A DNA stretch of 64,000 bases. It comes from Ceratodon purpureus. Lineage: Eukaryota > Streptophyta > Bryopsida > Pseudoditrichales > Ditrichaceae. A program made the translations under genes and the position numbers. Of this stretch, positions 6,900 through 62,457 are shown piece by piece (the first letter of the stretch is position 1; each line of letters starts with the position of its first letter). The stretch is from NCBI GenBank assembly GCA_014871385.1, contig CM026427.1:14096430-14160429 (forward strand), given 5' to 3'. The notes beneath the pieces were generated by a model. That model worked only from the letters and a program-made list of their open reading frames with translations, searched no databases and had not been told where the DNA came from.

Positions 6900-7490
6900 T
6901 ATCATTTAAATCTCCAAGCACAACATCACAAATTGAAATTTCCAAAGCCACATCACAAACCCAATGTCTCAGGGCAACATTACAAATTGAATGTACACCA
7001 TAGATTAAATGTTCCAAGGCAACGTCACATATTGAATGTTCCAATGTGACATTCTTGATTGAATATCTCAGTGACATCCTAGATTGAATATCTCACGTGA
7101 CGTCTGACATTAAAGATTGAATGTCTTACTTCAAGGCCACATCACAAGTTGAATGCTCTTGGATGATATCCGAGATTGAATGTCTAGGGTGGCATTTGAC
7201 ATCACAAATTGAATGTCTTAGGGTCACATCACAGATTGAATGTTCCAGGTGAAATCTTAGATTGAATGACCAGGGTGACATTCTAGATTGAATGACTATG
7301 GTGACATCTGACATTGTAGATTGAATGCCTTAAGGCCACATCACAGATTGAATGTTCCAGAGCCACATCACATGTTGAATGTTCCAGGTCACATCACAAA
7401 TTGAACGATCTAGAGTGACATCATAGATTGAATGTCAGAAGGCCACATCACAAATTGGATGTTCCAGGGGCCACATGACATATCAAATGG
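6900..7490. repeat. Degenerate minisatellite, 24-28-bp units
   Basis: About twenty imperfect copies of a unit close to 'cacatcacaaattgaatg' followed by 'ttccagggc' lie in tandem. Unit length varies from about 24 to 28 bp, and some copies carry an extra 'tgacatc' piece. The short minus-strand frames here (repeating HSICDVAL-like peptides) are only translations of the repeat. A run of plain AT-rich DNA follows to about 8050. Confidence 0.85.
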
Positions 7491-16368: not shown

Positions 16369-16376
16369 GTTGAAAC
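16369..16376. repeat. hAT target-site duplication, left (GTTGAAAC)
   Basis: This 8-bp sequence abuts the left terminus of the 4.9-kb element and is repeated exactly at 21314-21321. An 8-bp duplication is diagnostic of hAT transposition. The absence of mismatches suggests a fairly young insertion. Confidence 0.95.
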
Positions 16377-16387
16377 CAGCGTTTTTT
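16377..16387. repeat. hAT terminal inverted repeat, left
   Basis: CAGCGTTTTTT, 11 bases, exact inverse of 21303-21313. Confidence 0.93.
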
Positions 16388-17204
16388 CTACGATTTTCAT
16401 TTTGGAGCTCTGGTGGCCACATGTGAACATTTTCGAGAGAATCACTGGCTGCCACTCATTTTATTTAAGGGATTTTTTTTTATTTATTTCTAAAAATTCT
16501 CAGAGTTTATGCACCATTTCTGGCACTATACAAATTTTTCTGTAAGCCAGTAGGTGGCACCTAGGTGATTCTATGTGTCAAAGTTACGGCGACATCGCAA
16601 GAATTTGCAGAGCAAAATCTCAGACTCCTAGGCGAGTAAAACACAACTGAGGGGGAAATGTGGCGACATTATGAGTTTCCCGTATCTCCCGCGATGAAAT
16701 CTCTCAGCGTCGGTTCACCATTTCTCCTGATCTCCTGCCCAGGTAGGATAACAAAATAGAAATAACAAAGACTGCAAGTAAATTCAAGCGAAGGCAAACA
16801 CATCGACCAACAGGAATGCATCATCGAAATTTGACAAGAACCATCCAGCAAAGGAAAACACGACATTGAGATTTGGCCCACAACATCGACAAAAGGGTTT
16901 CACCAGCAAAGGAAAGCAAAACAGTGAGCACTGAGTATATTACAAAATGAACTCAATGAATACTCAAGACACCTGAAGATCGACAAAAGGAAATCAGTAA
17001 AGATTGAAGACACAACATGCATAAAATGAAATCGGACACTTGAAAAAAGACTCAGGGAAAAACTGGGACTCGGGAGGGGAAGGTCTGGTGAACCGACGAC
17101 TTCCACGGTGAAGGCCAGACAGACGTCTGGCCTATCGTGTTTCATCATTGAGACGCCTGCGTAAGAACCTGCAAAACTCCAGAATTGAAAACACAACGTT
17201 AACG

Positions 17205-20200
17205 TTAGTCTCCCTTCCTCACCGAAGCCTTCCACTGATCATAGGCTGCATCGTAAGGAAAGTCATCAAGGGAGTAGAACTCTTGGGCGTGCATCCCAAC
17301 CACGAGTGGCAGGTGTGTGGACAGGCGGTTCCGAAGCTTATTTTTCATGAAGCTGAGAGTGGAGAAGGTGCGTTCGTCTTCAACACTCCCCAGAACAGTG
17401 ACCACAGCCAGTTCCACAACCTTCATATACTCCGACAGCTTGTGCCGGAGTAAAGAGTTGGTTTCTATGCGACGCCAGAGGCGGGTCAACGGATTCAGAG
17501 GGAGATCCCCCTGCATGGCAGCATGGCAATTGGCTTTCATAGCAATTTTAAACATGCAAGCCTGTTCGTCTAGCCTCGGGATGGAAAGGACCGGTGGAGC
17601 ATCCTTTCCTTTAGACTTCGGAACAGGAGCTACAGAATCGGCAACCGGCTCCACATGTGTGCCTTCAGATGACTGGCCCAAAGAGCCCCCCCCCTTCTTC
17701 GGAATGGCATATGTTTTAACGAGCCCATAGTGTTCCTTAATGACAGTAATGTGCTTGTCAAAATCAGAGTCGGCATTCTCCCGTAGCCAATACTGAGGGT
17801 AAACGAACCCGAATGCATCCATGAGGGATGATGAGGGGAATCGCCCCTCAAGCTCTGCAATGAGCTTCTCAGCTGCCTCTACATACCACACAGCCAGTGA
17901 ACAACGGTTAGACCGTGCACAACATTTCCAATAGACAAACCGGTAAGCGATAAAACTGCAGCATGTTTAAATCAGGAAGTAATTCACAGAATTCAAAGAC
18001 TCTTACCTCTACACAGTTGTTTCACGTCATGCACAATATCCGCATAGACTTGTTTTGTGACCATGCGAATTGTCTGCTTCCCGGCCTCCCTGTACGTGGC
18101 TGGAATACTGTGACCAGTAGGTGTAAAGTGGAGGACCTCGGCAGCATCGACGTTGAGATCAAAGGAGCCTTGCACCCAACTCATGGGAATTGCCTCATGT
18201 CTCACGCCAACTAGTCCTTTGAAGTCGAAGAATACGTCATGTGTAAACGCTGTATGATCGTCAAGATAAAACGAAAATACCTCTGAGATGCACATCTGAA
18301 TTGCCGAGACATAGTCACAGACAAACACGTCACGTGCTTGAGCGAATTGCATGAGACTGTGGACACATTTCAGAAGCGGCAAGAGGCCGGACAGGCCAAG
18401 TAAGATTTGAATGTCTGTGAGGTGTTCCAGGTTCTTCCGTGCAATCTCCATCAACTTTTTATCAACCTTTGCTTTGCTGCCCATGCCGTCCTCTACAGGC
18501 CGCACAGAATCCGTGGACATCTTCACAATGAGGGGCCGGTATTGGCACATAACCCGCACAGCCGGGGACAACATCGAAATCCACCTCGTTTTCACATTTT
18601 TGAGAATCTTCAGCCCTTTAGAGTGCATCAACTCAGCCAGTTTCACGAACTCCAAGTGTCTCTTCGGGGATTTTGCAAAAAAGGCGTGCAGGCTTGTCAA
18701 CATCTCTTCGATACGCTCCACGACGGGTAAGGAGCTCAGAGTCCGAACCGCCAAGTTCGTCCTGTGAGCCTGCGCACAGCAGAAGACGAGCACTGGTAAG
18801 ACTTCAACAGCTCCCCCTAAAACCTAGTTCAAAAATAAAAACGCAATGCTAAACATCTAAAGCAGCAAGCTACATGACCTAAACCCCATGCTGCGAATGC
18901 AAATACTTACCATGCAGTGTATGCCAAGCATACGAGGTGCGAAATTGTTCTTGAGCTGATTAACTACTCCGTTTTTTGTGCCTTGAAATGTGCTGACTCC
19001 ATCTGCACAGTATTCCACAGCATTAGAACATTAGAATTCGAAATTAAGTTCCCTAATCGGTACATTGCTGTGGTTTTTAGGGTCTGCAATCTCCATGCAG
19101 GAAGATGCACAGAATGTCAACGACAGCAGCGTGCATGATATCGTCATTGATCTCTCACCGCACCTCCATTAGCATGCACAACACTGCACCCACCTCACCG
19201 ATACAAAAAGGACAGAACTTAAACAGGGTTTGGATTTTACGCACCTGCTCCGAAGGATGCAAATCGGGAGAGAAGTTGATCTTCCTTGATGCCGGCTTGG
19301 TTCTTCAACGCCTCGACGATTACGCTGGTGAGGTTGTCGCTGCCGCCTCCATCGACGACGCGCTCCAACGACAACAACATCGCCTTCCTCTCCCAGTCTT
19401 CACAGACATATCCATGTATAGATATCCAACTCTGGGTATCTAACGTGGTTACCTCATCACATGTAACGGAGAAGAACCGTGCTCTGCCCATAACCTCTTG
19501 TGTTTTGAGCTGCACCTGATGGTGCAAACATTCAGCCAACGCCCACCCTGCGGAGTCGCTCCAGTGACGCTTTGGCAACTTCGGCACAGCCAAGAAGTTC
19601 AGTAGCGGTACAAGAGCCGCGTACTCTAGCATTGGCCTCCCCTCTTGGAGGAGATGGAGTATCGTAGCGAACTGCAGCCTTTTCTGCGCTCTCTCACCCT
19701 TCACCACGGCGAGTTGCTCCGCCACCGTGACTGAATTTCGAGCTGCGCAGAGTCTCTCGTAACGCAAATGTTTACAATTCTTCGCCACATACCACTGGCC
19801 CTTTTTAATCCCCGGAGCCATGTCCTTGGTCGCTTTCCGCTTTCCGCTGTGCTTCACCAAAGTATCCCACTTGGGTCCCAGAATCTTGGGCTTACCTGTG
19901 ATCTGCGAGCAGACAACACACTTCACTGACTGGAAGAGTCCGTCAGAACCGCGAAATAGCTCCGCCCATGGTAGTTTCGCGGACCACGTTTCTTGGAATT
20001 TCCGAGTTGCATCGTAATTTTTCTTCGGCACCTTCTCTCTGACGTCCACCTCGATGTCGTCATCGGAGAATTCATCCTCCTCTTCGACCATGGGCAACTT
20101 ACCTTTATCGACAACCCTGGATACCACAGGCGCATCAACACCTGCAATGTTAACGTTAGATTCATTGTGTCCGACCTCGACAGACCCCTCCGATGACAGA

Positions 20201-20523
20201 ACAATGACGTCCGCCACGGAGTCCGACGTGCATGGTGCACTGCATGCGGGAATAGTATCCGCGTCAACAGTAAGCAGCCTGACAGCAGGGTTCGACCTCC
20301 GCCGATGACCCGCACCCCCCTTCACCTTCCTCTTTCGAGGATTATCGCACACTGATAGACTCTTAGTACCCACACTTGAGCACCCCGCGACAGAATTGGA
20401 GGTCATAGACATACTGGATCCATCAAGAAGCACAGTGGGAGTAACCCCAGACGACGAAGACGACGACCCAGTCATCGGGATCCTGTTGTAGTATCGGAAT
20501 AGAGCAGATCCAGGAGAAACCAT
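17205..20523 (-). CDS. hAT-family transposase with BED-like finger (935 aa)
   Basis: DNA transposase that would cut and paste the surrounding element. There are four exons on the minus strand: 20523-19245, 19002-18911, 18769-18007 and 17878-17205. Introns are GT..AG, phases close, and no internal stop is present. The N-terminus is Ser-rich with a basic NPRKRKVK at 61-68 (probable nuclear signal) and an acidic patch near 147-156. A C202-x2-C205...H225 motif marks a BED/TTF-like zinc finger. The RNase-H-like core has candidate catalytic Asp356 (VTCDEV) and Asp427 (GADGVS), followed by the hAT signature HCMAHRTNLAV at the exon 2/3 join. The C-terminus has the hAT dimerisation motif (EDERTFSTLSFMKNKLRNRL). 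The architecture resembles the ZNF862/KIAA1586-like hAT lineage. The start is the first ATG in the open frame. A domesticated gene is unlikely because the TIRs and target duplication are intact. Confidence 0.9.
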
Positions 20524-20535
20524 CGCAACCCCACT

Positions 20536-20856
20536 CTACAACAATAAGTCAATGACTTCAACGACGTTCAGAATTTTCAGGAGCGGAATCAGAAGAGCAC
20601 AAATGAAAAGCACAATCACAAGTTCAGTGATACCAAAAACTCCGGCAACATTGGACGCTGGGGTAGCATCAAAATCAGTGCCGCGATACAGAAGCCAAGC
20701 GCGAGACAGCATGAGACAGAGACAACATGCACAGCTCAATTGCTGCAAAACCAAGCGCCAAAGCTCCGCACTCCACAGACCCCAACCCAACTTTCCCCCA
20801 TTGTACAATGCGAGGATTAAAATAAACACCCTAATCCCCCTTGCATTCCCGCCCAT
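20536..20856 (-). CDS. Small hydrophobic ORF upstream of the transposase (106 aa)
   Basis: The frame opens at an ATG at 20856 and stops at 20536, twelve bases before the transposase ATG, on the same strand and inside the same element. The predicted peptide is strikingly hydrophobic, with one segment near residues 9-20 and stronger Leu/Ile/Val-rich segments near 35-50 and 78-104. It could be an upstream ORF in the transposase leader that lowers translation, an accessory membrane protein of the element, or a chance frame. An acceptor-like 'ttggttttgcag' inside it also allows a 5' UTR intron. No family is recognised. Confidence 0.25.
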   Translation of the reverse strand: MGGNARGIRVFILILALYNGGKLGWGLWSAELWRLVLQQLSCACCLCLMLSRAWLLYRGTDFDATPASNVAGVFGITELVIVLFICALLIPLLKILNVVEVIDLLL

Positions 20857-21302
20857 GGTCAACAATCGTTGTTCGACTTCTCCGGCAAAAACATTCAAAA
20901 CACAAAGGAAATCAAGAAAGATCAAAGAATGCCAAACAATGAGCAACCCTCCTGCGAAGTACACAACAGAACAGGCGACATGGAAACTGATGATGGTGCA
21001 TCAAGGTGGCGATAGCCAGGTGGAAGCAGGGGATTTGTGGACTGTCGGATCAAAGCCGCCAGGCTCCAACCCCACTCCATCCACTCTGCTTTGGTAGCCA
21101 GCTGGCTACATCAAGGAAACGGCGGGGTACTTCTCATCATACCCCCAGGCGACGTGACCAGCCTCAACCATCGAACGGTGGCGATTGCAGGAGACGAATC
21201 AGGTAATTCTTGGCACTTTCACATTTGAGTTTTACCCTGTTTTATCGCATTTTGAGGATATGCTCAGATTTATTTCGCCATTAGGCTTTAAATCGCCAGT
21301 TA

Positions 21303-21313
21303 AAAAAACGCTG
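21303..21313. repeat. hAT terminal inverted repeat, right
   Basis: This is the exact reverse complement of 16377-16387, directly followed by GTTGAAAC. Confidence 0.93.
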
Positions 21314-21321
21314 GTTGAAAC
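21314..21321. repeat. hAT target-site duplication, right (GTTGAAAC)
   Basis: Right-hand copy of the 8-bp duplication, identical to 16369-16376. Confidence 0.95.
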
Positions 21322-33550: not shown

Positions 33551-36500
33551 CGATGGCGTTGCAAACCTCCGAGCTCAAAGCTAATCGTGGTTCTATCAAT
33601 CTATGAGATGGTCGTGGAAGCAGTCACATCTGCTGTGGTCGATTTCGCATCGATTCATAATATTGGAAGAATTGAGTATATGTAAGAGAAGTACTCTAAT
33701 TTCTAACTATCTGGATTCTCAAATATATGATGCTGACATAAGCTGCTCATGGTAGAGTAGGAGCAAATCACTCCATTATAGCACTCAAAGAGAGTGATCC
33801 CCCCCAGCCAGAAGGCTATTCCGTAGTGGGAAGAGATTTGCTAGAAGCGAGCAAGTACCTCACTACAGTGAAGGTGAATTCTAAGAGCTTCTGGTGACCG
33901 AGGAGAGCGATAATGAGAGAAAACAATAAGTAGGCCCTCAGTGACATGGTGCTGTCATATTATCACAACTACAACATGAAGATCAAACTCGGCATTCTGG
34001 GTGAATAATCTCTAAGTTGATCTCTAGAATGATCATTTAGAAGTCATCCCAACCCTCAATCCTCTTGGATCTTTTTTGAGGGTTTTTTTTTGAGAGGTCA
34101 GGGCTCTAAAGAATTTTCTCCAGAATACAGAAATGTGAATTCTCGATGATTCTGTCGTGAAGGTGAATCGCACGGTTGGGTATGTTCACGTGAAAAAATG
34201 AAATGTCTCCGAGGAACTATGGTACAGGGAAGAGATTCGGTGCAGGAATCGGCACCAGCTGAACGCCACGACCTTCAACTGCGACCTTCACAAATCTGAC
34301 GCCCCTCTTGAGCGACGGACGGATACGTTGCCTCGTTTCGGCCGACTTCCGTCATTCAATGTATTCGTATACGTAAGGATAACTATCATCAATATACGAC
34401 CAAGTCTAAGTTTGAGAGAGTACGTTTTTTGGAGTGACAAATTTAAAAAATAAAAATAAAAATTGGTCTTGAATAGTGTTTATATTTGCATCTGAAGCTT
34501 TCCAGTAGACTGCTCCTTCAGTGTGAGGGACACGGTAAGGTCGGATCTAGAATAGTTACTCCGCTCACTTTTCATCAGGACATCACAAATTCCTTAAACA
34601 GTAATAGCGTTGTAATAGCTTTGGACATAGATCATTGTTTACTCCAATGAGGCCTCCCAGTCCATGGAGTGAGCAAATGGGATATAATTCTTAGACTTGC
34701 AGCTTTCAAGGAACTACCCATCTGACTGAGGTCATCGATGATCCACTCGGACTCTTGGGAGTTCAGAAGCTGCGATGATGTCAAGATAGTCACTGCATAA
34801 TATTCTTCATCAGTTAGAAGGCATCCATGAAATTATAAGTCAAGAGAGTTATGGCTTTTCAAGAGATCGCCGATGGCATTTTCAGGTTCTCTATGGTGTG
34901 TAATTAGGGCGTTCGATATTGGCACGGACCCAAGGTACTTTAGTTCCAGCTACTCTGGAAGCGGTGAAAATCAGAGGACTCTTCTCGTTCCGAGAATACT
35001 TCTACGTGGATCAACGAATTGTTTGTTGGTTGGTGTCAAATCCAGTATTTCAACCTTCTCTTTCTTCACAGTCAAGGTCCGTAAAATATTTCAATAGTCT
35101 TCCTTTGAGGCCGTAAAACATTTCAAAATCTTACGCCATCAGTCCATCCGTAATCTGGATTCTGCAGTTTGTTCCTCACCTTGACTTCTGTGCCAAGAAT
35201 GGTCTTCCTCAGCAGTGTTTCTGATTTATAACTCAAGATACTGAAGACGATCCACTAACCACTGTACACCTTCTCACACGATGTATGTATGCAAATGCAG
35301 GGATGCAGTTCTGGATATGAAGGAATATCAGGTGCTGAGGCAGAGCTACCACTGCAAGAGAGCATTCAAAAGAGAGGAATGAGAAAAATTGGAGGTTCTT
35401 ATTACAGTATTAAGTGACTGTATGTCAACCGGGCTTTGTCCTTCTCTGTGTCTATGTGTGCACTGTGCAGTGTAAACAACCCTATACTGTATAACTTGCA
35501 TTCAACACGAGTTGCTGCACGTAGGAAATACCGTAGCACCATGGCACGGACGCCCAAAAATAATTCTATAAAAGAAAAACATAAAAATTGGAAAATTATG
35601 GGGATAGGAATAAACAATTAGAATATATAATTTATAATGATGTTTTGCTAATTCTCAGCCATTTGAGATTATCTCTTGTGAATTTGTGTTTTAAGGCCAT
35701 CTTTTGAGAAACCATGAGTATGCATTTTTGCATAAGTTGTGATCGGCGGAAATCAAGAAGATAGATAGAAACACTAACCCTAAAGGGCCAGCGTGAATGA
35801 AGTGTCCGTTTGTAGTGCCAATGACTCAAAATCAAGAAGACATATTAAGAAGGCATTGAGAATTGGCTTTGTATTAAAAAAAAAATCATGATTTTTAAGC
35901 ATTTTGGTAGTTCTAAATTCAAATACATAAATAGAATTTCAACTCAGGGTTTCTTTTGTGTCAAAATGCTACAACTTCTATATCTACTAAAACATATTTC
36001 TAAGTGAATATTTTATTTACACATTCAGAATCATTACAGACTAATAACCATGATTTGAAGTGATTTCTGGCAAATAAGTTGATAAATCTGTTATAACATA
36101 TGAATGATTTGGTCTTTTTTCATAGAAAGGCAGCGTGAACATTCTTGAGAAGAAGAACACATGAGAAGAAGATACAGGAACACTGAGGTCAAGCCACCTA
36201 TTACCAACCAGGAACCCATCGACAGCATGTAGGGTATATAAGCATGTAGGGTATATAGAAATAGTCATGGGTTGGACGCATTTCGGATCATGTTTACTTT
36301 TTGTAGATGCTTCTAAATAGGCTTAGGTGGTTCACTCTTAGTGGTTCTTAGAATTTGTATTAAAGAAATTCTGACTTTCATTGTCCACAATTATATGCAT
36401 CGACAGTGAGCGATTATGCTGTATCTAGATATTGGTTGTGGGTTCCAAGCAACTTTTCACTTCAAATAATTATAACTATTAAAATAGTGGGAATAAAATT

Positions 36501-37031
36501 ATGGGACTTCTTGCATTCAACAAGAACCTTATGTTTGCACACATGAAAAATCCTAAACAAATTATATACCTTATTCTCATATGCTAAAATCCTTTAGTGA
36601 TCGGTTATGGGTGGCTCGACCTTAGGTTCACCATGTAGTAGCGGACCATAGAACAGGTATTTACAGGTAATCAATCAGGCATTTGAGGAATATGGTAGTC
36701 AATGATAGCACTGTTGCTGCACTGTTCCGAGTAATTTGTTTTTATCGACGCTCTGCGCAGATGACTTGCACTACAGGCAGACAAAAGACTGAACCACCTG
36801 CCTTCCGATGCTGATGCATTGACATCGCAATAAACGGAGTTGCAAACAATGTCAATCTCGTGTGCGTTTTAACGCTGCTTGATAAGAATTCTGTAAGGGA
36901 CTGTAAGCGGATGAGCTCCTCTGAAAACGAGACATAACTGCAGGAAAACAGTCACAATACCTCCGGAAATGGCATATGACTCCTTCGAAAAATCTCACCC
37001 TCACTTGCGAAAGAATCTTTGCTTTACTATT
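33551..37031. other. Intergenic DNA
   Basis: No gene recognised. A GC-richer, CpG-bearing patch at about 34200-34380 could be the promoter of the minus-strand proline-rich gene. The rest has intermediate to AT-rich composition with short chance frames. The part from about 36.7 kb is likely 3' UTR of the PGAP1 gene. Confidence 0.5.
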
Positions 37032-40000: not shown

Positions 40001-42908
40001 GCAGCTCGTCGGGGGTCAATTGAAGCACTCCCGAAGGTGAGACCTGCTCTGGAGGGCTTCCTGGTTCAGTCTGCACATCCATGCTAAATGTTCAGCATGC
40101 CTAACTTGTAAAGACTCATACAGAGGTTTAAATTCAAAGGAAGACAAATCGAACCTGGGGTGGAGTAGGACCAGCAGGAATTTGAACCATCTTCATTGTC
40201 ACCTCCACTATACGCTCGGAGGCTGCCACATCGCCCGACTGGCTCTTCTCAGGCCAGAGGTGCACCCGCAACCCAACACATGGGGACAAGTTTGTTACGA
40301 GAACAAACGATGCGTGATTATCCTTGTCCCGGCGTGCCTGTACAAAATATTCATGTCCAGAACTTAAGATTCCCATTATAATATCATCATAACAATCAAA
40401 ATAATGGCGCGATATCGGGTTCATTGTTAAAAACTGTACAAGCAAATGAAATACAAACTCTCAAATTTCAGATAGACATTTTAAAATAGAACAGAGTGTA
40501 TACCAGTTTTTCGATGTCCATCCATCGCCGTCTCCCATCCATCGACAAAACATTCATGATGGGTGATTGAACGTCAATGTCGTCAAACATATCACCCTCC
40601 CAGAAAATCTTTTGTGGACATGAAAACTGAGTCACCTTCGTCTCATTCCCAGCTAGTAATTCAAGTTTCTTTGAAACTTGGGCCTGAGTCCCCGAGCTCT
40701 CTTTCGTGTTAAGAAAATCTACAATTTTCAATACAAAAATGAAAGTTAACACTATAAGTACCACAAAAATTTTGTGAAAAGAAAAGAAAAGAATAAACAA
40801 GTTACTTCCGAGTATCTCATGAACCAAGACTTCAAGTAGACACAGGAAGGGGTAAAATATACCTTTCCCACTGACATCTTTCACAGGGGCCTTCCAGGTA
40901 TACGGAAGCGAAAGAGGCGAATGCTTATTGCTAGATGGTAGTACATCTAATGCTTGAGGAAGCGCACTGCGCAAGTTGGACACAAAAACAGCCAACCTTG
41001 TGTGTGGATTTGTATACTGTTGGCCAGTGCTCTTGTCTACCAATTGAAGTAGCGTATGACCCACCTGTACGTCATGATATGAAACAAATCAAACCAACGT
41101 GCTAGTTGGGTTTCCAACAAAGAATACGTTATTTGGAATAACAGTTACTGCGTCCAAGATATGAGCATTCAAAGTACCTGAACGACCATCTGGTTGCACC
41201 AGAGAATGCTCTGATGCTCCATAGACATCCAGATGTTCACCATTCCTGCTGTGTTAACTGTTAATCCATTCGTCGGAGGTACAATCCCATCCAACGATGA
41301 CATTCGAGAACGAACCTGTGGGCACCATAACCAAGGTTCAATATCGGTCCCAAAAGCGCCTGGTCATAAAATGCAATAACAAAAAGGAATCGCAAATGCC
41401 AGGTAACAATGCGGTACCTGATAATCTCGAGCCCCTCCAGTTATAGACACTACCACCACTTTCGAAAGTGGAGGTTCTGATCCTTTAACAGATTCATAGC
41501 CACGGATCCAGGCATTGTTCACACGGGTAAAAAAATGCCCGAACGAAGGTTGCACGGCCAGTGGTGGCGACCTGACAGCACCAGTAATACCAGTAAGAAC
41601 GGAAACTTTCACGAAGAAAAAAGATTTCCTCCACTGACCTGAGATTATCAGCGCAATTTCCTACGGACATGCTATGGTTACTCTTCGATGACTTTTCAGA
41701 ACACACAGAGAGACTTACCGGTGTGGGCTAGAAAGAGTGAGCAGAGTCTCCACTGCGCCTTTTCTTAAACCCGGGTGGACTACAGCAGCTCGAGCTACAA
41801 AACCCCCCATTGAGTGTCCAACCAGGATGACACTTGTGGGAAGAACTCCCCCGGTGTTTCCATTATTCTGTGCCCGTGCCTGCATTGAATCCCTATACCT
41901 ATCCAATATCTGCCACCCAGCAACAACCAATCCGTTAAGCCTAGAAGAAAAATTCAAATTATTAACGAATGCCAGCACTGAATAATCATACACCCGAAGT
42001 GCAAGTTCCTTTGCCCAATAAATCACCGAAGTTGCAGAGTGAAATACCCTATGAACTGCTCCAACAACATAGTTCGCATGCTGTTCCAGAATCCATCCGT
42101 CCATTGCCGATTTCTCGCCCTCTAAATCAACTGTGAACCAGTCCAGGTGGTTCGGATACTGCCCTTCCACTTTCGCACCTGCCAGTAGCTCTGATATGTC
42201 TAGCCCATCAGGGCCTGCCTCAAGAGGCGTGAACGATGACTGCTGGTAATAATATCCCTCCATTGGCCCTCCATTGAAGGCCCTATCAGATTCAGCAGCC
42301 ACTGATCGCACCTGGCACAGGCAAACAGGAAAATCTTAAACCCCACCTACTCTCAGAGTTCAAAACGAATCGCAGCCCCAAACGAATTCAGCTCAAATCT
42401 CACCAGCAGTGCATTTCATCGCAGGATTTACACAGCTCCATTTACGCAGCTCACATCCTCAACATTGGCACTAAAAACAAGTTCACCTCCAGAATATCTA
42501 CATTCAAACTTTGGCAAGTTTACTAATTTCATACACAGATTGAAACATAGTCTACTCCATATACACCCCGAATGAATTGTCCCATGCGAGCCTTACTTGC
42601 TTGTAAGAGCCACCATTGCCTGGAATGAAAAGGACCGGCACACCCGAAAGTTGCAGAAGCTCCTGCTCCTGGTCGATCTGTTTCCAGCCTTCGTGATAAA
42701 GATACAACCCATATTTACTCTCCTTGGCGTCAGCAGGGGCAGGAACCGGTATATAACTCGGGTACATGAACGTCATAATGCAGCCATAGATTAAAGGCTG
42801 CTGCAGCCCAATCAACCCCGCTACCGCAATCGAAGCTGCGAACACCAAGCACAGAAACACCCGACAATTACACCCCATCCCTGCCCCTCTGTCTGCCCCT
42901 GTTTTCAT
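37032..42908 (-). CDS. PGAP1: GPI inositol-deacylase, PGAP1/Bst1 family (1124 aa)
   Basis: ER membrane lipase-like enzyme that removes the acyl chain from the inositol of GPI anchors, needed for ER exit of GPI-anchored proteins. Eighteen exons (high to low): 42908-42597, 42311-42048, 41909-41719, 41571-41418, 41315-41178, 41064-40863, 40718-40504, 40337-40155, 40070-39960, 39827-39708, 39507-39351, 39202-39039, 38893-38807, 38673-38345, 38198-38126, 37994-37855, 37713-37503, 37355-37032. Phases close throughout. One membrane segment lies near residues 15-38. GNGGSYKQ (98-104) and the GHSMGG serine-hydrolase elbow (Ser225) mark the alpha/beta-hydrolase domain. The C-terminal third holds several membrane segments. 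The open frame reaches back to 42944 without an ATG, so the first ATG, 42908, is taken. Length agrees with plant homologues. No key motif is missing. Confidence 0.93.
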
Positions 42909-53818: not shown

Positions 53819-54035
53819 AGGTAGAATGTTGTAAAATTGCCAATGTTTTAAAAAGGCTCTGTTGTCTATTGCAGCTCATTTTAGGTTGGAAATGTAGGCG
53901 ACTAGTACATTTCTTGTTGTTTTGGGTCACGATGGATAAGAAATGTACTAGTTGCCTAAATTTTTGCCTTAAAATAAGCTACAGTAGTACATTGGAGCCA
54001 TTTTAAAACACTGGCAATTTTGGGTATTCCTACTG
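53819..54035. repeat. Degenerate foldback element (~83-bp arms)
   Basis: The arm at 53833-53915 is about 75 % identical to the reverse complement of 53938-54021, leaving a 22-base loop. Weaker inverted similarity extends about 13 bases further out on each side (ggtagaat against cagtaggaat). No clear target duplication is found. It could be an old foldback MITE or a small-RNA precursor. Confidence 0.65.
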
Positions 54036-54063: not shown

Positions 54064-54071
54064 GTTGTATC
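54064..54071. repeat. hAT MITE target-site duplication, left (GTTGTATC)
   Basis: An 8-bp direct repeat, exactly matched at 54182-54189, abuts both ends of the small palindromic element. Confidence 0.9.
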
Positions 54072-54181
54072 CAGTGTTGGACTGGTATGGCATCAAATGA
54101 ATCACGGCATATATTTTAGCTTTAAAATCCAACCTAAAATGAACGCCACAGTTCATTTGATGCCATACCAGTCCAACACTG
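54072..54181. mobile_element. 110-bp hAT-type MITE with perfect 30-bp TIRs
   Basis: Bases 54072-54101 (starting CAGTGTTGGACTGGTATGG) are the exact reverse complement of 54152-54181, leaving a 50-base centre. The CAGTG terminus and the flanking 8-bp duplication GTTGTATC identify a hAT non-autonomous element. It has no coding capacity. Its termini differ from those of the 4.9-kb hAT (CAGCGTTTTTT), so that transposase is probably not its mobiliser. Confidence 0.92.
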
Positions 54182-54189
54182 GTTGTATC
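54182..54189. repeat. hAT MITE target-site duplication, right (GTTGTATC)
   Basis: Right copy of the 8-bp duplication, identical to 54064-54071. Confidence 0.9.
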
Positions 54190-56858: not shown

Positions 56859-58746
56859 TCAGCTCCGGAACGGGTCCCTCATGTCCTCAGGCCCGTGGGC
56901 AAAGTGACAACGATCACCGAACGTACACGTCCCTTTCGCAAAATTCTCACATAACTTAGTTTTGAAATTGTGTGAAACAGCACCAGCCGGGGGACGGGCT
57001 GGAACGTTATCACGTTGCATTAGCACCTGACGCACCATTTGACTAGCTTGCTTGATCTGTTCAAAAGAGCCTTCCATTTCTACATTTCTCAACCCTGGGT
57101 CCGTCTCATGCTCCTTGATCGAAAGTTTGGCACCAGTAATGCGGCAAATCTGTTTAGCGTTAATACCTCCCTTGCCTATAATAGCTCCAGCCAACGATGC
57201 CTCAATGCTAATTTTAGCGGTGGATGATGCACCGAAAGAGTTGGCAGCAGCCATGCCTGGTGGAGTCGGCTCTCGATAAGAACCAAAGCGTCCTCCTTGT
57301 CCACCTACTTCTCTTTCCCTTCCAGGTCCTCCACTTCCAAACCTACCACCACTGTTAGAACCATATAATCCCGTCCCAGCTCCTCCACGATAAGACGCCG
57401 AGGGAGGGCCCTGATCCCTGGAGTAGTCTTGACGTGGATAGGTATCCCGCTCTATCGAAGGTGCGTTGAAGTTTGTGCTCGACTTCCGCAGTTCCTTCTC
57501 TCCATGAGCAAAATGGCACTTATCAGAGAAGCGGCATCCCTCTGGTGTATCAAACCGATTACAAAGTCGAGTCTTGAATCCACCGAGGTTGGCTCCCTGG
57601 TCATCTGGCCCTACCCCGCCAACGACCTTGCGAGCACCCGCACCACCCATACTACCGATGTTGGCCAGAGGGGCCAACCCGCCCATACTTGGCATACCCC
57701 CAGGTACAAAATGCAAAAAGTGGCAGCCTTCTCCATATGGACAACCGGATGTACTGCAAAAACAAAACACGTAGATATGTTCAATACACTAGTATGGTAG
57801 TGACGGATGAATCCAGACCTTACTCAAGAGCGGGAGGATATCACCGAGGGGTTACAAGTACGGCATTATGAAGCCAACAAACTTGTTCCTCTGATGGTCG
57901 TACCTTCGAAGCGAAATAACTAAAAGGAAAGAAGAAAAAGAAAAAAAGGTAACAGCATTTCAAAGAAGAGACTAGCATATCAGGACCAATGCGCTCTACC
58001 CCGTGTGCATTTCAAATTAAGGCTCAAGCTTACTGACATATTTACCTGAAAAATTTAGTGCAAGGCTTAGTCCTGTTGCCTGAGCTTCCATCCTTGTTGT
58101 CTACATTATCCAATGCACTGCTGTTATTAGTACTTTTTCGGATGGTTACCAAATGCATTAACTTCTAGTTGTGCAGATGTTCAGTCATTACTACGGGATG
58201 GGCCTCAAGTAAGAAACAAGGGTACAACTTAGAACAGTAGTAGCATTTGTAAAAAAAATTTAAAAAAAACTGTTCAGGCTTGTCCATGTTCGATAACTAA
58301 CAGAAGAGCTGTCGTTCAGACTGAGGACATCTCTACAAACGAGAGAAAACAGTATCGGGAAACACTGTCTAGACACCCCTGATACTCGTTTCCATGCAAA
58401 CACAAGGTCCGACAGTTACACAATAACCAGCTTCTACAGATCCTCAGTACAGAAGCTGCAGAAAACTGCTACAGGTGCTCCGTTACGAATCCATCAGGCA
58501 GATAGGTCAACAAGGCGGCTAGGTTAAAAAGCTTCTTTCTCGGAAATGGCTAGCTGTCGCACTAGTTCATGCAACATTGGGCAAGACAAGCTGAAACGCA
58601 GCGCACCCGACAACAAACGAAAAATGGAAGTGAATGAAGAGCTTACAATCATCTACGCCGCCATGCCCACCGTTAGCTCCATTGCTGCCATTCAATGGAC
58701 CAGATTCTGGTCTGGGCCTCTTCCGCGGCGGGCCGTAGGGATCCAT
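56859..58746 (-). CDS. CCCH zinc-finger / KH-domain RNA-binding protein (349 aa)
   Basis: RNA-binding protein of the plant KH plus CCCH family, expected to control mRNA processing or stability. Three coding exons on the minus strand: 58746-58647, 58100-58046 and 57753-56859, with closing phases. Order of domains: a basic Gly/Asn-rich N-terminus (MDPYGPPRKRPRPESG), CCCH finger 1 near 47-66 (C-x8-C-x5-C-x3-H), CCCH finger 2 near 115-134 (same spacing), a Gly/Arg/Ser-rich linker, and a KH domain near 233-300 with the GKGG loop (AIIGKGG). CCCH finger 3 (C-x7-C-x5-C-x3-H) lies near the C-terminus, which ends DPFRS. All metal ligands are present. The architecture matches angiosperm C3H36/C3H52-like proteins. 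The small second exon (55 nt) supplies the first Cys of finger 1. Confidence 0.93.
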
Positions 58747-59800: not shown

Positions 59801-62457
59801 AGTGGTTTACTGGCACTGGGGTGTACTGGGAGTTGGAGGCATGTTCCGGGAGCATCTGCACGGAGACACTCTAAAGCGGCCTCTATCAGAATAGGAAATC
59901 AGCGGGGCCTCCGGAAATGCATGATGGACCGCCACTTTTGGAGTTGATACACGCTAAGGTAGAAGGCTCGAGAACAGTTCGGGCATTTAGAACCGCCAAC
60001 TAGATGGCTGTGAAATGGACATGAGTTGGTTCTGAAATTGAGCGGATACAGTTAGTGAATGAACCAAGAAAAAAAGGAAATGAGTCAATCATTCTCTTTG
60101 TTTTCCCCATTTTTTATTTAGGAGTGCAAGTGAACAGTTTATGAAAGACCTATGAGCTCAAATAGCACACTCTAGGTTGATGCCTTCAAAAAAAAAATCT
60201 AATTCAGGGAGACTCACAAAATTTCGATTAAAATTGCCACTCAACTGTTCTCAGATTATCTTCCAACCAAAAATATGTTCTGAAATTTCCCATTGACAGA
60301 TTTCTTCACAGAGGGCAAAATCTCCTTAGATGGTCTATTTCCGAGCCTCGTACCTTACTTGGAATTCCATTGGAAAGGTGCCAGCCCATAGCAACGCAAG
60401 TCTCTCATCGCGCATGCAAGCCAGAGGCGGGGGTCTCTAAAGTAAACGAACCCAAAACCGATCATTTAAGGAATTTAGCATATGTGTTTGAGGTATATAA
60501 TTTAAAGAGGATTTTTCATGTGTACAAACATAAGGTTCTTGTTGAATGTAAAAAAATTCATGATTTTATTCTTTATATTGACATAATTCTAATTATTTAA
60601 AGTGAAAAGTTGAAATCTCAGATGGGGTATATATAGGCTAATGTAAAACCGACCACCATGACACCAAAACTCGATCATGGTATTACTATCAAAATACTCC
60701 CATATGATTGCCTTTCTACCAATCACGCTTATTACACTCTTCTAGATCTCCTTTGATTTTAAATTTGAAACTTCTCTGAAATGGAGAAGTCTACTAATCG
60801 ATTATGGGGAGAAGTCTACTAATCGATTATGGGTTGATGGTTGGGTTTGTCTATCTCAGTTGCTTTAAGCGCGCGTTGAGAAATTTTCGAACATGCCTAT
60901 GTATTATGAGTTGTCCGTGCAATTTTTTGCATTGTTAAGAAATCTCACGGTGCAAAAATTAAATTGCATTGTGAAGAGTGTCGTGAGGGCATTTCTTGTT
61001 GGTAAGAAGTTGAAGATGAATAAAAGAACACATGGAGAGGTGATATTGTGTTGGTAGCAGTTTGAAAGGTTATTTAGAGTTTTGGGTTGGAGTATTGGTT
61101 ATTGACCTCATTTGTGTACAAATTTTATAAACCACAAGTATTTACTTTGCAAGTTGATATTGTGATGTATACTAAGATGTTCTAGGTCACTAAGTAACCC
61201 ATGTGTTTTGGTCTAAGACTTGAACCTTGAGAGATGACAACAAAAAGTGGTTGAATTTGAAAACATTGTGTCACGATTTGCAACTCATTAGATGACTAGA
61301 TTGTGTGATTTTCAATATTATTTTTTTATCTACACTAAAAATAAATTTGATCAACTTTCAAAGTGATTAAATTTTCTTTGATTATATCTTTTTAAGAAAA
61401 TTCTACAAGAAATTGTTCATTTTAATGAATAATATACATAAAGACTTGATTTATATGCCAAAATAACTTTAAACCCATTGTGGCCCTAAAAATAAGTGTT
61501 TACGTCTTATAAAGCTATGCCTTTAGAGTGGCTTTGAATCAAATGAATTATTTTGTTGAAAGCTTATCATACACATTTTTCTTAATGTAATAGATATTTA
61601 CATCGTCTGAAAGCTTTTAACATAAATGAAGAATCATTTTAAAAGAATTATGTCAATATATATAAAATGTCCTATCAATTTTAATACTTCACAATTAAGG
61701 TCTATTGTTTAATTTCATTGACTTTGTGATATGTTTTTTCCAATTCATTTAGTTTAAAATCTTTGTATGTAATTGAAAAAAAAATGCAAAGGTCAACAAA
61801 GTTATAAATATGGTAAGAATGAAAGAAGAATATTATAGTTACGAAAGAAAATAGTTTATAGAGAATTCTAAGAAAGATATCAAAGTATTAAAAATTATAA
61901 AAAATAAATAATATATGTCTATTCAGCTATTTGTTTCTTTCTTGGTTACAAACTAATTTGATATATTTGTGACAAGAAAGTTAAGATGATTTAGGTATTT
62001 ATATCAAACATGCAGCATATTTTCTACTTAAAGAATTTTTTATATGTCATTTGAAATTCTTCAAATATTACAAATTTCTCTTTTGGCTCAATCTATAGTT
62101 TATGTGTTTACTTATATTTCAAGCAATGCAATTTGTAAATGTATTAGCGTATTTTTTTAAACTTAAGTTAATCTTAAAAATTAAAATTAAATTTACATTT
62201 CACATTTTTTTACAATACGAATTTAAATTTAAAACTCATATAATCTATAATAAAATACATTTCCACAATATATATAAAATCTATATTAATGTGTATGTTT
62301 TTCTCAAATTGTACATTTTAACTCACATTCAAGTTATTTTCTCAAACAAAAAATAAAAATCTTTAATTATTGAAAATAAGGCTTCAAATTTTATCATTAT
62401 AATTAATTTTAAACTATTTAGAAGCTTTAAATATTTTGTTGATACAAAAATATCTTC

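Follow-up and report, generated by a model that had tools for sequence, protein, structure and literature searches.

Transposons of the hAT superfamily move by a cut-and-paste chemistry that leaves hairpins on the flanking DNA, as in Hermes and Kat1, and their terminal inverted repeats are short and begin with a CAGxG-like motif. As stated in the accessible part of the source, Hermes prefers nTnnnnAn target sites and TcBuster prefers nnnTAnnn (PMC10512250). For Hermes, the residues H268, W182, W319, K585, R586, and R588 are named in the available text of a further article, in which K907, R909, and R911 of Kat1 follow E895 and the second Asp appears under two different numbers, 377 and 328 (PMC4763223). 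Here, a stretch of 64,000 nucleotides from the moss Ceratodon purpureus (the window; GenBank assembly GCA_014871385.1, contig CM026427.1, corresponding to C7:14096430-14160429 of the genome searched) is compared with these systems. At 16377-21313, the window contains a structurally complete element of 4937 bp, labelled W, with a transposase gene on the minus strand. W is very probably a genuine, recently functional, autonomous-type cut-and-paste hAT transposon, and it belongs to a family that has transposed by hAT rules and whose copies read here are mostly broken.

Structure of the Element

W is bounded by 11-bp terminal inverted repeats, CAGCGTTTTTT on the plus strand at the left end (16377-16387), which lies on the 3′ side of the gene, and the same sequence on the minus strand at the right end (21303-21313), on the gene's 5′ side. 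The two ends match at 11 of 11 bases and differ from base 12 onward, and they have the short, CAGxG-like form of hAT ends. Directly outside them stand two identical copies of an 8-bp target-site duplication, a hAT feature, with GTTGAAAC on the left (16369-16376) and on the right (21314-21321). When the window was simulated 20 times with a second-order Markov model and matched 8-bp duplications 100-10,000 bp apart were considered, exact inverted ends beside such a duplication never exceeded 8 bp; thus, the 11-bp ends of W are longer than expected by chance.

The right end also carries a pair of subterminal repeats of the GGC(G/A)A type, GGCGATTTAAAGCC...ATGGCGAAATAAA (21269-21297, minus strand), which are a candidate binding site for the transposase. 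These repeats became visible through alignment of the ends across copies and not from W alone, where k-mer enrichment stayed below the 95% level for the k-mer maximum (GGCGA 9 times against 2.0 expected, z of 5.0 against 5.8). A search of the window with Rfam gave no match.

The Transposase Gene

The transposase is encoded by four minus-strand exons that splice to a frame of 935 amino acids with no stops, and all three introns are of the GT..AG type. Exon 1 (19245-20523) encodes the N-terminal region, a partial zinc-finger-like C202-x2-C205...H225, and the putative first catalytic Asp, D356. Intron 1 (19003-19244, 242 nt) interrupts the codon of the second, D427, at a position that is common to other copies. 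Exon 2 (18911-19002) extends from D427, in the motif GADG, to C456-M457, the leading half of the CxxH motif, and is followed by intron 2 (18770-18910, 141 nt). The remaining His of this motif (H459), W520 within KTRW, and an insertion region are found in exon 3 (18007-18769). After intron 3 (17879-18006, 128 nt), exon 4 (17205-17878) encodes the putative catalytic Glu, E880, within EDERTFS, the basic residues K892, R894, and R896, the C-terminal region, and the stop codon.

This four-exon model is backed from outside W, since two relatives in the same genome, L019 (930 amino acids) and L041 (902 amino acids), splice at the same intron positions into stop-free frames, and since GT..AG is kept at all three positions in 10 relatives out of the first 20, L019 being one of these 10, with at least one missing in the other 10. 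An alternative acceptor for exon 3, which would give a protein of 953 amino acids, was rejected because the 18 amino acids that it inserts in the CxxH region are absent from L019. The inverted ends, the perfect 8-bp duplication, and the stop-free 935-residue frame in four exons had all been proposed in a sequence-only reading of this DNA, and each was confirmed, as was its description of W as a structurally complete hAT element with an intact transposase.

Relatives in the Same Genome

The genome searched comprises 362,488,568 bases in 151 contigs. With exon 4 as the query, 39 matches were obtained and merged by eye into 36 places including W, the closest relatives being 85% and 84% identical to it. 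Searches of the same genome with the ends of W gave relatives of at most 83% identity for the left 828 bp and of at most 74% for the right 790 bp, if short pieces of 44-103 bp are disregarded. Relatives carrying both ends, for which the sequence-only reading had recommended a search, were indeed recovered, and the ends are common to copies elsewhere. Scans of a viral-contig collection and a genome-contig collection yielded no relatives.

In total, 24 copies, some of them partial, were read: W, 20 of the 35 other exon 4 places (L009-L028), and three copies from a protein search with exon 3 (L039-L041); a further 15 exon 4 places and a place on contig C15 stand outside this count. The spliced frame is intact in 3 of the 24, namely W, L019 (74% identical to W), and L041; each of the remaining 21 is damaged in one exon or more by stops, frame offsets, or large deletions. 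Intactness was judged from exon-wise frames, from the spliced frames of eight copies, and from protein searches with exons 1 and 3, as stop counts over aligned codons run high (L019 has three stops when aligned and none when spliced). Among matches of at least 60% identity in the exon 1 search, the whole exon (residues 1-426) is free of stops only in W, L019, L041, and L027, the last of which has a broken exon 4. The exon 3 search scored 149 of 604 first-look candidates, giving 155 matches, and the exon 1 search scored 98 of 615; among the matches scored, the C15 place has an open exon 3 and open exon 1 residues 1-356, and two relatives of 52-54% identity have almost complete open exon 1 frames. 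Because the scored matches are subsets and the C15 place is unread, three intact copies is a tally of the copies read and not of the genome. Within that tally, the family persists as diverged intact lineages amid broken relatives.

Two further observations concern the distribution of the family. The family's left end is also present at C2:165031-165352, at 76% identity over bases 1-323 and with no accompanying exon 4 match, and this is possibly a deleted derivative. In addition, contig C6 (110.5 Mb, 30% of the genome) holds 19 of the 36 exon 4 places and is possibly a sex chromosome on which decayed copies gather. For Ceratodon purpureus, a review gives a genome size of 360 Mb and puts the U and the V chromosome at more than 100 Mb each (PMC8000587).

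Insertion Sites and Ends Across the Family

The four-exon family has transposed by hAT rules. Perfect and mutually different duplications flank W (GTTGAAAC), L011 (GACAGAAC), L019 (GTGTTTAG), L028 (CTCATAAC), L040 (GTCTGCAC), and L041 (ATATAGTC), the last of which has a degenerate inverted repeat at its right end. The duplication of L009 contains one mismatch, and L018 has two unequal flanks. With one flank taken per copy, 22 insertion sites give the consensus nTnnnnAn, the target form of Ac-type hATs: 19 sites have T at position 2, 17 have A at position 7, and W's own duplication carries both. The outer bases of these sites favour G (14) and C (12). The Buster-type pattern nnnTAnnn is not followed, as T occupies position 4 in 9 of the 22 sites and A occupies position 5 in only 3.

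Of the 24 copies, 19 yielded a left end and 11 a right end. Nearly all of these ends were found by near-match to CAGCGTTTTT; the first ten bases therefore look conserved because the rows were chosen in this way, an effect from which the inner stretches are free. In these inner stretches, two GGC(G/A)AAAT-like repeats come after the inverted repeat in the 11 aligned right ends and are absent from the 19 aligned left ends, which bear a different conserved stretch.

Selection and Age

The nearest near-full-length relative of W is L009, a decayed copy that is 81% identical to it and groups with it in the tree with a bootstrap of 90. Since the two separated, the W branch has accumulated 27 nonsynonymous changes, 29 synonymous changes, and no stops, whereas the L009 branch has accumulated 108, 23, and 6, respectively (Fisher p of 4.7e-6 on 27:29 vs. 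108:23). These changes were polarised with seven other copies, with 1111 ambiguous sites and one odd codon dropped, in alignments uncleaned of misaligned patches. With other partners, the nonsynonymous, synonymous, and stop counts are 19:46:0 for W against 57:23:2 for L012, and 1:4:0 for W against 21:6:3 for the partial copy L010. Three-point distances, which were computed on cleaned codons and make polarising unnecessary, agree in 7 of 7 outgroups: the W branch measures 0.026-0.033 at codon positions 1 and 2 and 0.18-0.26 at position 3, compared with 0.092-0.099 and 0.15-0.24 for L009. The intact pair W and L019 likewise differs by 0.18, 0.12, and 0.62 at codon positions 1, 2, and 3, whereas dead control pairs are flatter (0.045, 0.030, and 0.042 for L023 and L024; 0.035, 0.041, and 0.068 for L039 and L040). 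The W lineage has thus stayed under purifying selection while L009 decayed, and the branch counts, codon distances, and control pairs together indicate that for most of the period after the split the lineage encoded a functional transposase.

Given the absence of stops, W can have accumulated fewer than about 0.03-0.05 neutral substitutions per site since constraint was lost, values for which the probability of observing zero stops is 0.057 and 0.008, respectively. A perfect duplication is a weaker clock: even after each copy had taken up 0.1 substitutions per site, the two would still be identical with a probability of 0.21. The earlier claim that W is young, or recently functional, stands in the form of this bound, while the perfect duplication on which it partly leaned is weak when taken alone. 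Together, the exact duplication and the open frame suggest recent function rather than ongoing activity. The data do not support a young burst of W. Exon 4 has no relative more similar than 85%, and searches with the ends returned nothing closer except pieces of 44-103 bp; no recent increase in copy number is therefore apparent.

Identity of the Element and Alternative Explanations

The transposase of W presents D356, D427, C456-x-x-H459, W520, and E880, followed by K892, R894, and R896, which places the DDE residues, the CxxH motif, and the Trp in the order expected of a hAT protein. Across the clade, D356, H459, W520, E880, K892, and R894 are invariant wherever the exons are open and aligned, and E880 is invariant also across a single-frame sister group in the same genome (L033-L038). 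When a model of L034, an intact member of that sister group, was compared by Foldseek with 350,542 PDB chains, ranks 1-11 were all Hermes (E of 1.0e-5 to 3.1e-3), and the next chain had an E of 0.063. W is assigned to hAT on these motifs and the Hermes match, taken together with the ends and the target sites.

Several results weigh against this assignment. R896 is a Tyr in the broken copy L024, and DxxH replaces CxxH in two of the six sister proteins, L035 and L038. Neither the whole W protein nor its pieces matched any Pfam family at an E of 10, and no hAT model was matched by the five sister proteins searched; the exon 4 relatives likewise matched no hAT model in Pfam. The library itself works, as a control sequence scored 3.7e-32. 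Searches of the PDB by sequence and by profile gave nothing convincing, the best matches being unrelated chains with an E of 0.91-1.9, and in a profile comparison with hAT proteins of the same genome that Pfam does recognise, the alignment falls at ER.FS with an HH probability of 1.7-3.1%, which is not significant. The AlphaFold model of L034 is itself weak, with a predicted local distance difference test (pLDDT) score of 37 and query template modelling (TM) scores of 0.11-0.14, and it represents a sister protein and not W; because of these TM scores, the Hermes ranking is taken as support from local structure and sequence and not as a proven fold. A model of exon 3 alone was discarded at a pLDDT of 39.5. 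An empty site could not be identified in the assembly, where the left flank is single-copy and the right flank has only short matches of 68-75%, and neither exon 4 nor the ends found a near-identical copy of W there. Among the five sister proteins, no more than two gave weak Pfam matches, to unrelated families (DUF3678, 0.048; PolB_N, 0.24), and these were set aside.

The lack of a Pfam hAT match would be expected if W belonged to another superfamily that makes 8-bp duplications, such as a P-like one. This is very improbable given the CAGxG ends, the nTnnnnAn sites, the ER.FS motif with a spacing of K and R residues like that of Kat1, and Hermes as the sole fold match below an E of 0.01 for the sister protein. 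Equally improbable is that W is a domesticated hAT gene, whose transposase the host has retained in a different role, leaving the ends as relics. Purifying selection and the lack of a near-identical copy would both fit such a history, and domesticated hAT genes are known in plants, the SLEEPER genes being described in the available part of one source (PMC3499209). However, domesticated genes are marked by the loss of transposon ends, whereas the ends and the duplication of W are perfect and its right-end subterminal repeats are kept, which a host gene has no reason to maintain. The L009 split also lies about 0.2 substitutions per third-position site back; had W already been inserted then, an identical duplication would have survived with a probability of only about 0.05. 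Domestication had been named in the sequence-only reading as an outcome that would overturn it; it is not favoured because three diverged intact copies, W, L019, and L041, occupy three different sites, each with a matched duplication.

Within the hAT assignment, the present state of W can be read in two ways. The element may have inserted while active and later been silenced or inactivated through its promoter, methylation, or a missense change. This recent death is a serious possibility, if short of an even chance: no sibling exceeds 85% in exon 4 and no end is near-identical, so recent multiplication is not evident, and as many as about 0.03 neutral substitutions per site would be consistent with zero stops. 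On the other hand, no defect was found in the frame, the splice sites, the ends, or the motifs, cut-and-paste movement need not increase copy number, and the 76% left end on contig C2 might represent a deleted derivative. The other reading, autonomous activity that continues in living plants, would draw on the same anatomy, intact frame, and signature of selection that identify W as a hAT element, but only one copy of W's lineage was found in this assembly, and such activity is somewhat unlikely.

If W is a hAT transposon as assigned, its movement can be outlined as follows. The spliced 935-residue protein, a predicted RNase H-like DDE transposase (D356, D427, and E880; CxxH at 456-459; W520), would bind the CAGCGTTTTTT ends and probably also the GGC(G/A)AAAT repeats of the right end. 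It would then nick the ends and free the element, leaving hairpins on the flanking DNA. As the duplications suggest, the freed element would join an nTnnnnAn site with an 8-bp stagger, giving rise to the 8-bp duplication.

Implications

W belongs to a large hAT-like group that Pfam hAT models do not see, at least in the members tested. It is tentatively proposed that this group is a moss clade that ranks alongside Ac, Buster, and Tip as a further major hAT family, and that selection has kept several of its mutually diverged lineages intact. Since the tested members are missed by Pfam, such transposases may appear as unknown host genes in the transposon and gene annotations of these genomes. 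A survey of plants reports, in its available text, no hAT in Physcomitrella (PMC6027215); if the proposed clade is real, that absence could partly reflect such a blind spot. W is not described in the accessible portions of the literature on moss, bryophyte, and domesticated hATs, KIAA1586, Ceratodon, and hAT rules and structure, which is not proof of absence. W, an intact and complete DNA transposon in a moss, is a candidate for an endogenous mobile element in a group of haploid plants, and it offers a test case for the persistence of hAT lineages.

Other Features of the Window

A 110-bp hAT-like miniature inverted-repeat transposable element (MITE) is located at 54064-54189, with the duplication GTTGTATC, at least 30 outer bp exactly inverted (CAGTGTTGGACTGG...), and about 80% self-complementarity overall; it occupies 11 distinct places in the genome, the other ten copies being 87-95% identical. 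Close by is a second foldback of about 190 bp (53833-54021) that is 75% self-complementary. A degenerate tandem array at 6904-7483 is built on a unit of about 27 bp (ATTGAATGTC...), with about ten copies in 7199-7462 and shorter runs besides. Two minus-strand segments are parts of host genes, one for a PGAP1-like protein (41718-42335) and one for a CCCH/KH zinc-finger protein (56862-57788). The sequences at 36450-36612 and 60450-60612 form a 163-bp pair in inverted orientation with 82% identity.

Comparison With Known Systems

The four-exon clade has a large single-frame sister group in this genome; of the six members read (L033-L038), five share 40-42% amino acid identity with W over about 770 residues, the sixth (L037) sharing 43% over 574. 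They have the same motif order, and CAGxG ends with matched duplications were found in two of the six (L033 and L038); in contrast to W with its three introns, their frames of 786-949 amino acids are uninterrupted. The earlier statement that complete hATs with a full-length gene are uncommon is borne out within the four-exon clade (3 of 24 copies intact) and fails for the hAT-like elements of the genome overall; the exon 3 search returned many stop-free sister-group frames of 700-949 amino acids.

The hAT elements of this genome that Pfam recognises (by PF05699, the C-terminal hAT dimerisation domain; for example, L042 and L045) resemble W in that the ER.FS region around the Glu can be aligned, but the W clade scores nothing against PF05699. 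The search for this domain scored 150 places out of 874 candidates, all above the cut-off. Among them, 27 listed places on ten contigs belong to another hAT family, with an open frame of 1032 amino acids and 40-45 bits, which may represent a recent burst and may be a better candidate than W for current activity.

Among described elements, Hermes, the housefly hAT (PDB 8edg and 2bw3), has no detectable sequence similarity to W and differs from its three-intron gene. The distance from W520 to E880 in the W transposase is 360 residues, and the corresponding Trp-to-Glu spacing of Hermes is shorter. Both systems make an 8-bp duplication at nTnnnnAn, as far as the consulted text on Hermes goes, and Hermes is the best fold match of the low-confidence model of sister protein L034. 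The CxxH motif, the Trp, and basic residues near the Glu are further points in common, as described in the available part of the Hermes and Kat1 source (PMC4763223). Kat1, a domesticated hAT of Kluyveromyces, likewise has a CxxH motif and subterminal repeats, and its basic residues stand at +12, +14, and +16 from the Glu as they do in W, according to the same text (PMC4763223). Unlike the domesticated Kat1, W is a complete element within a matched duplication.

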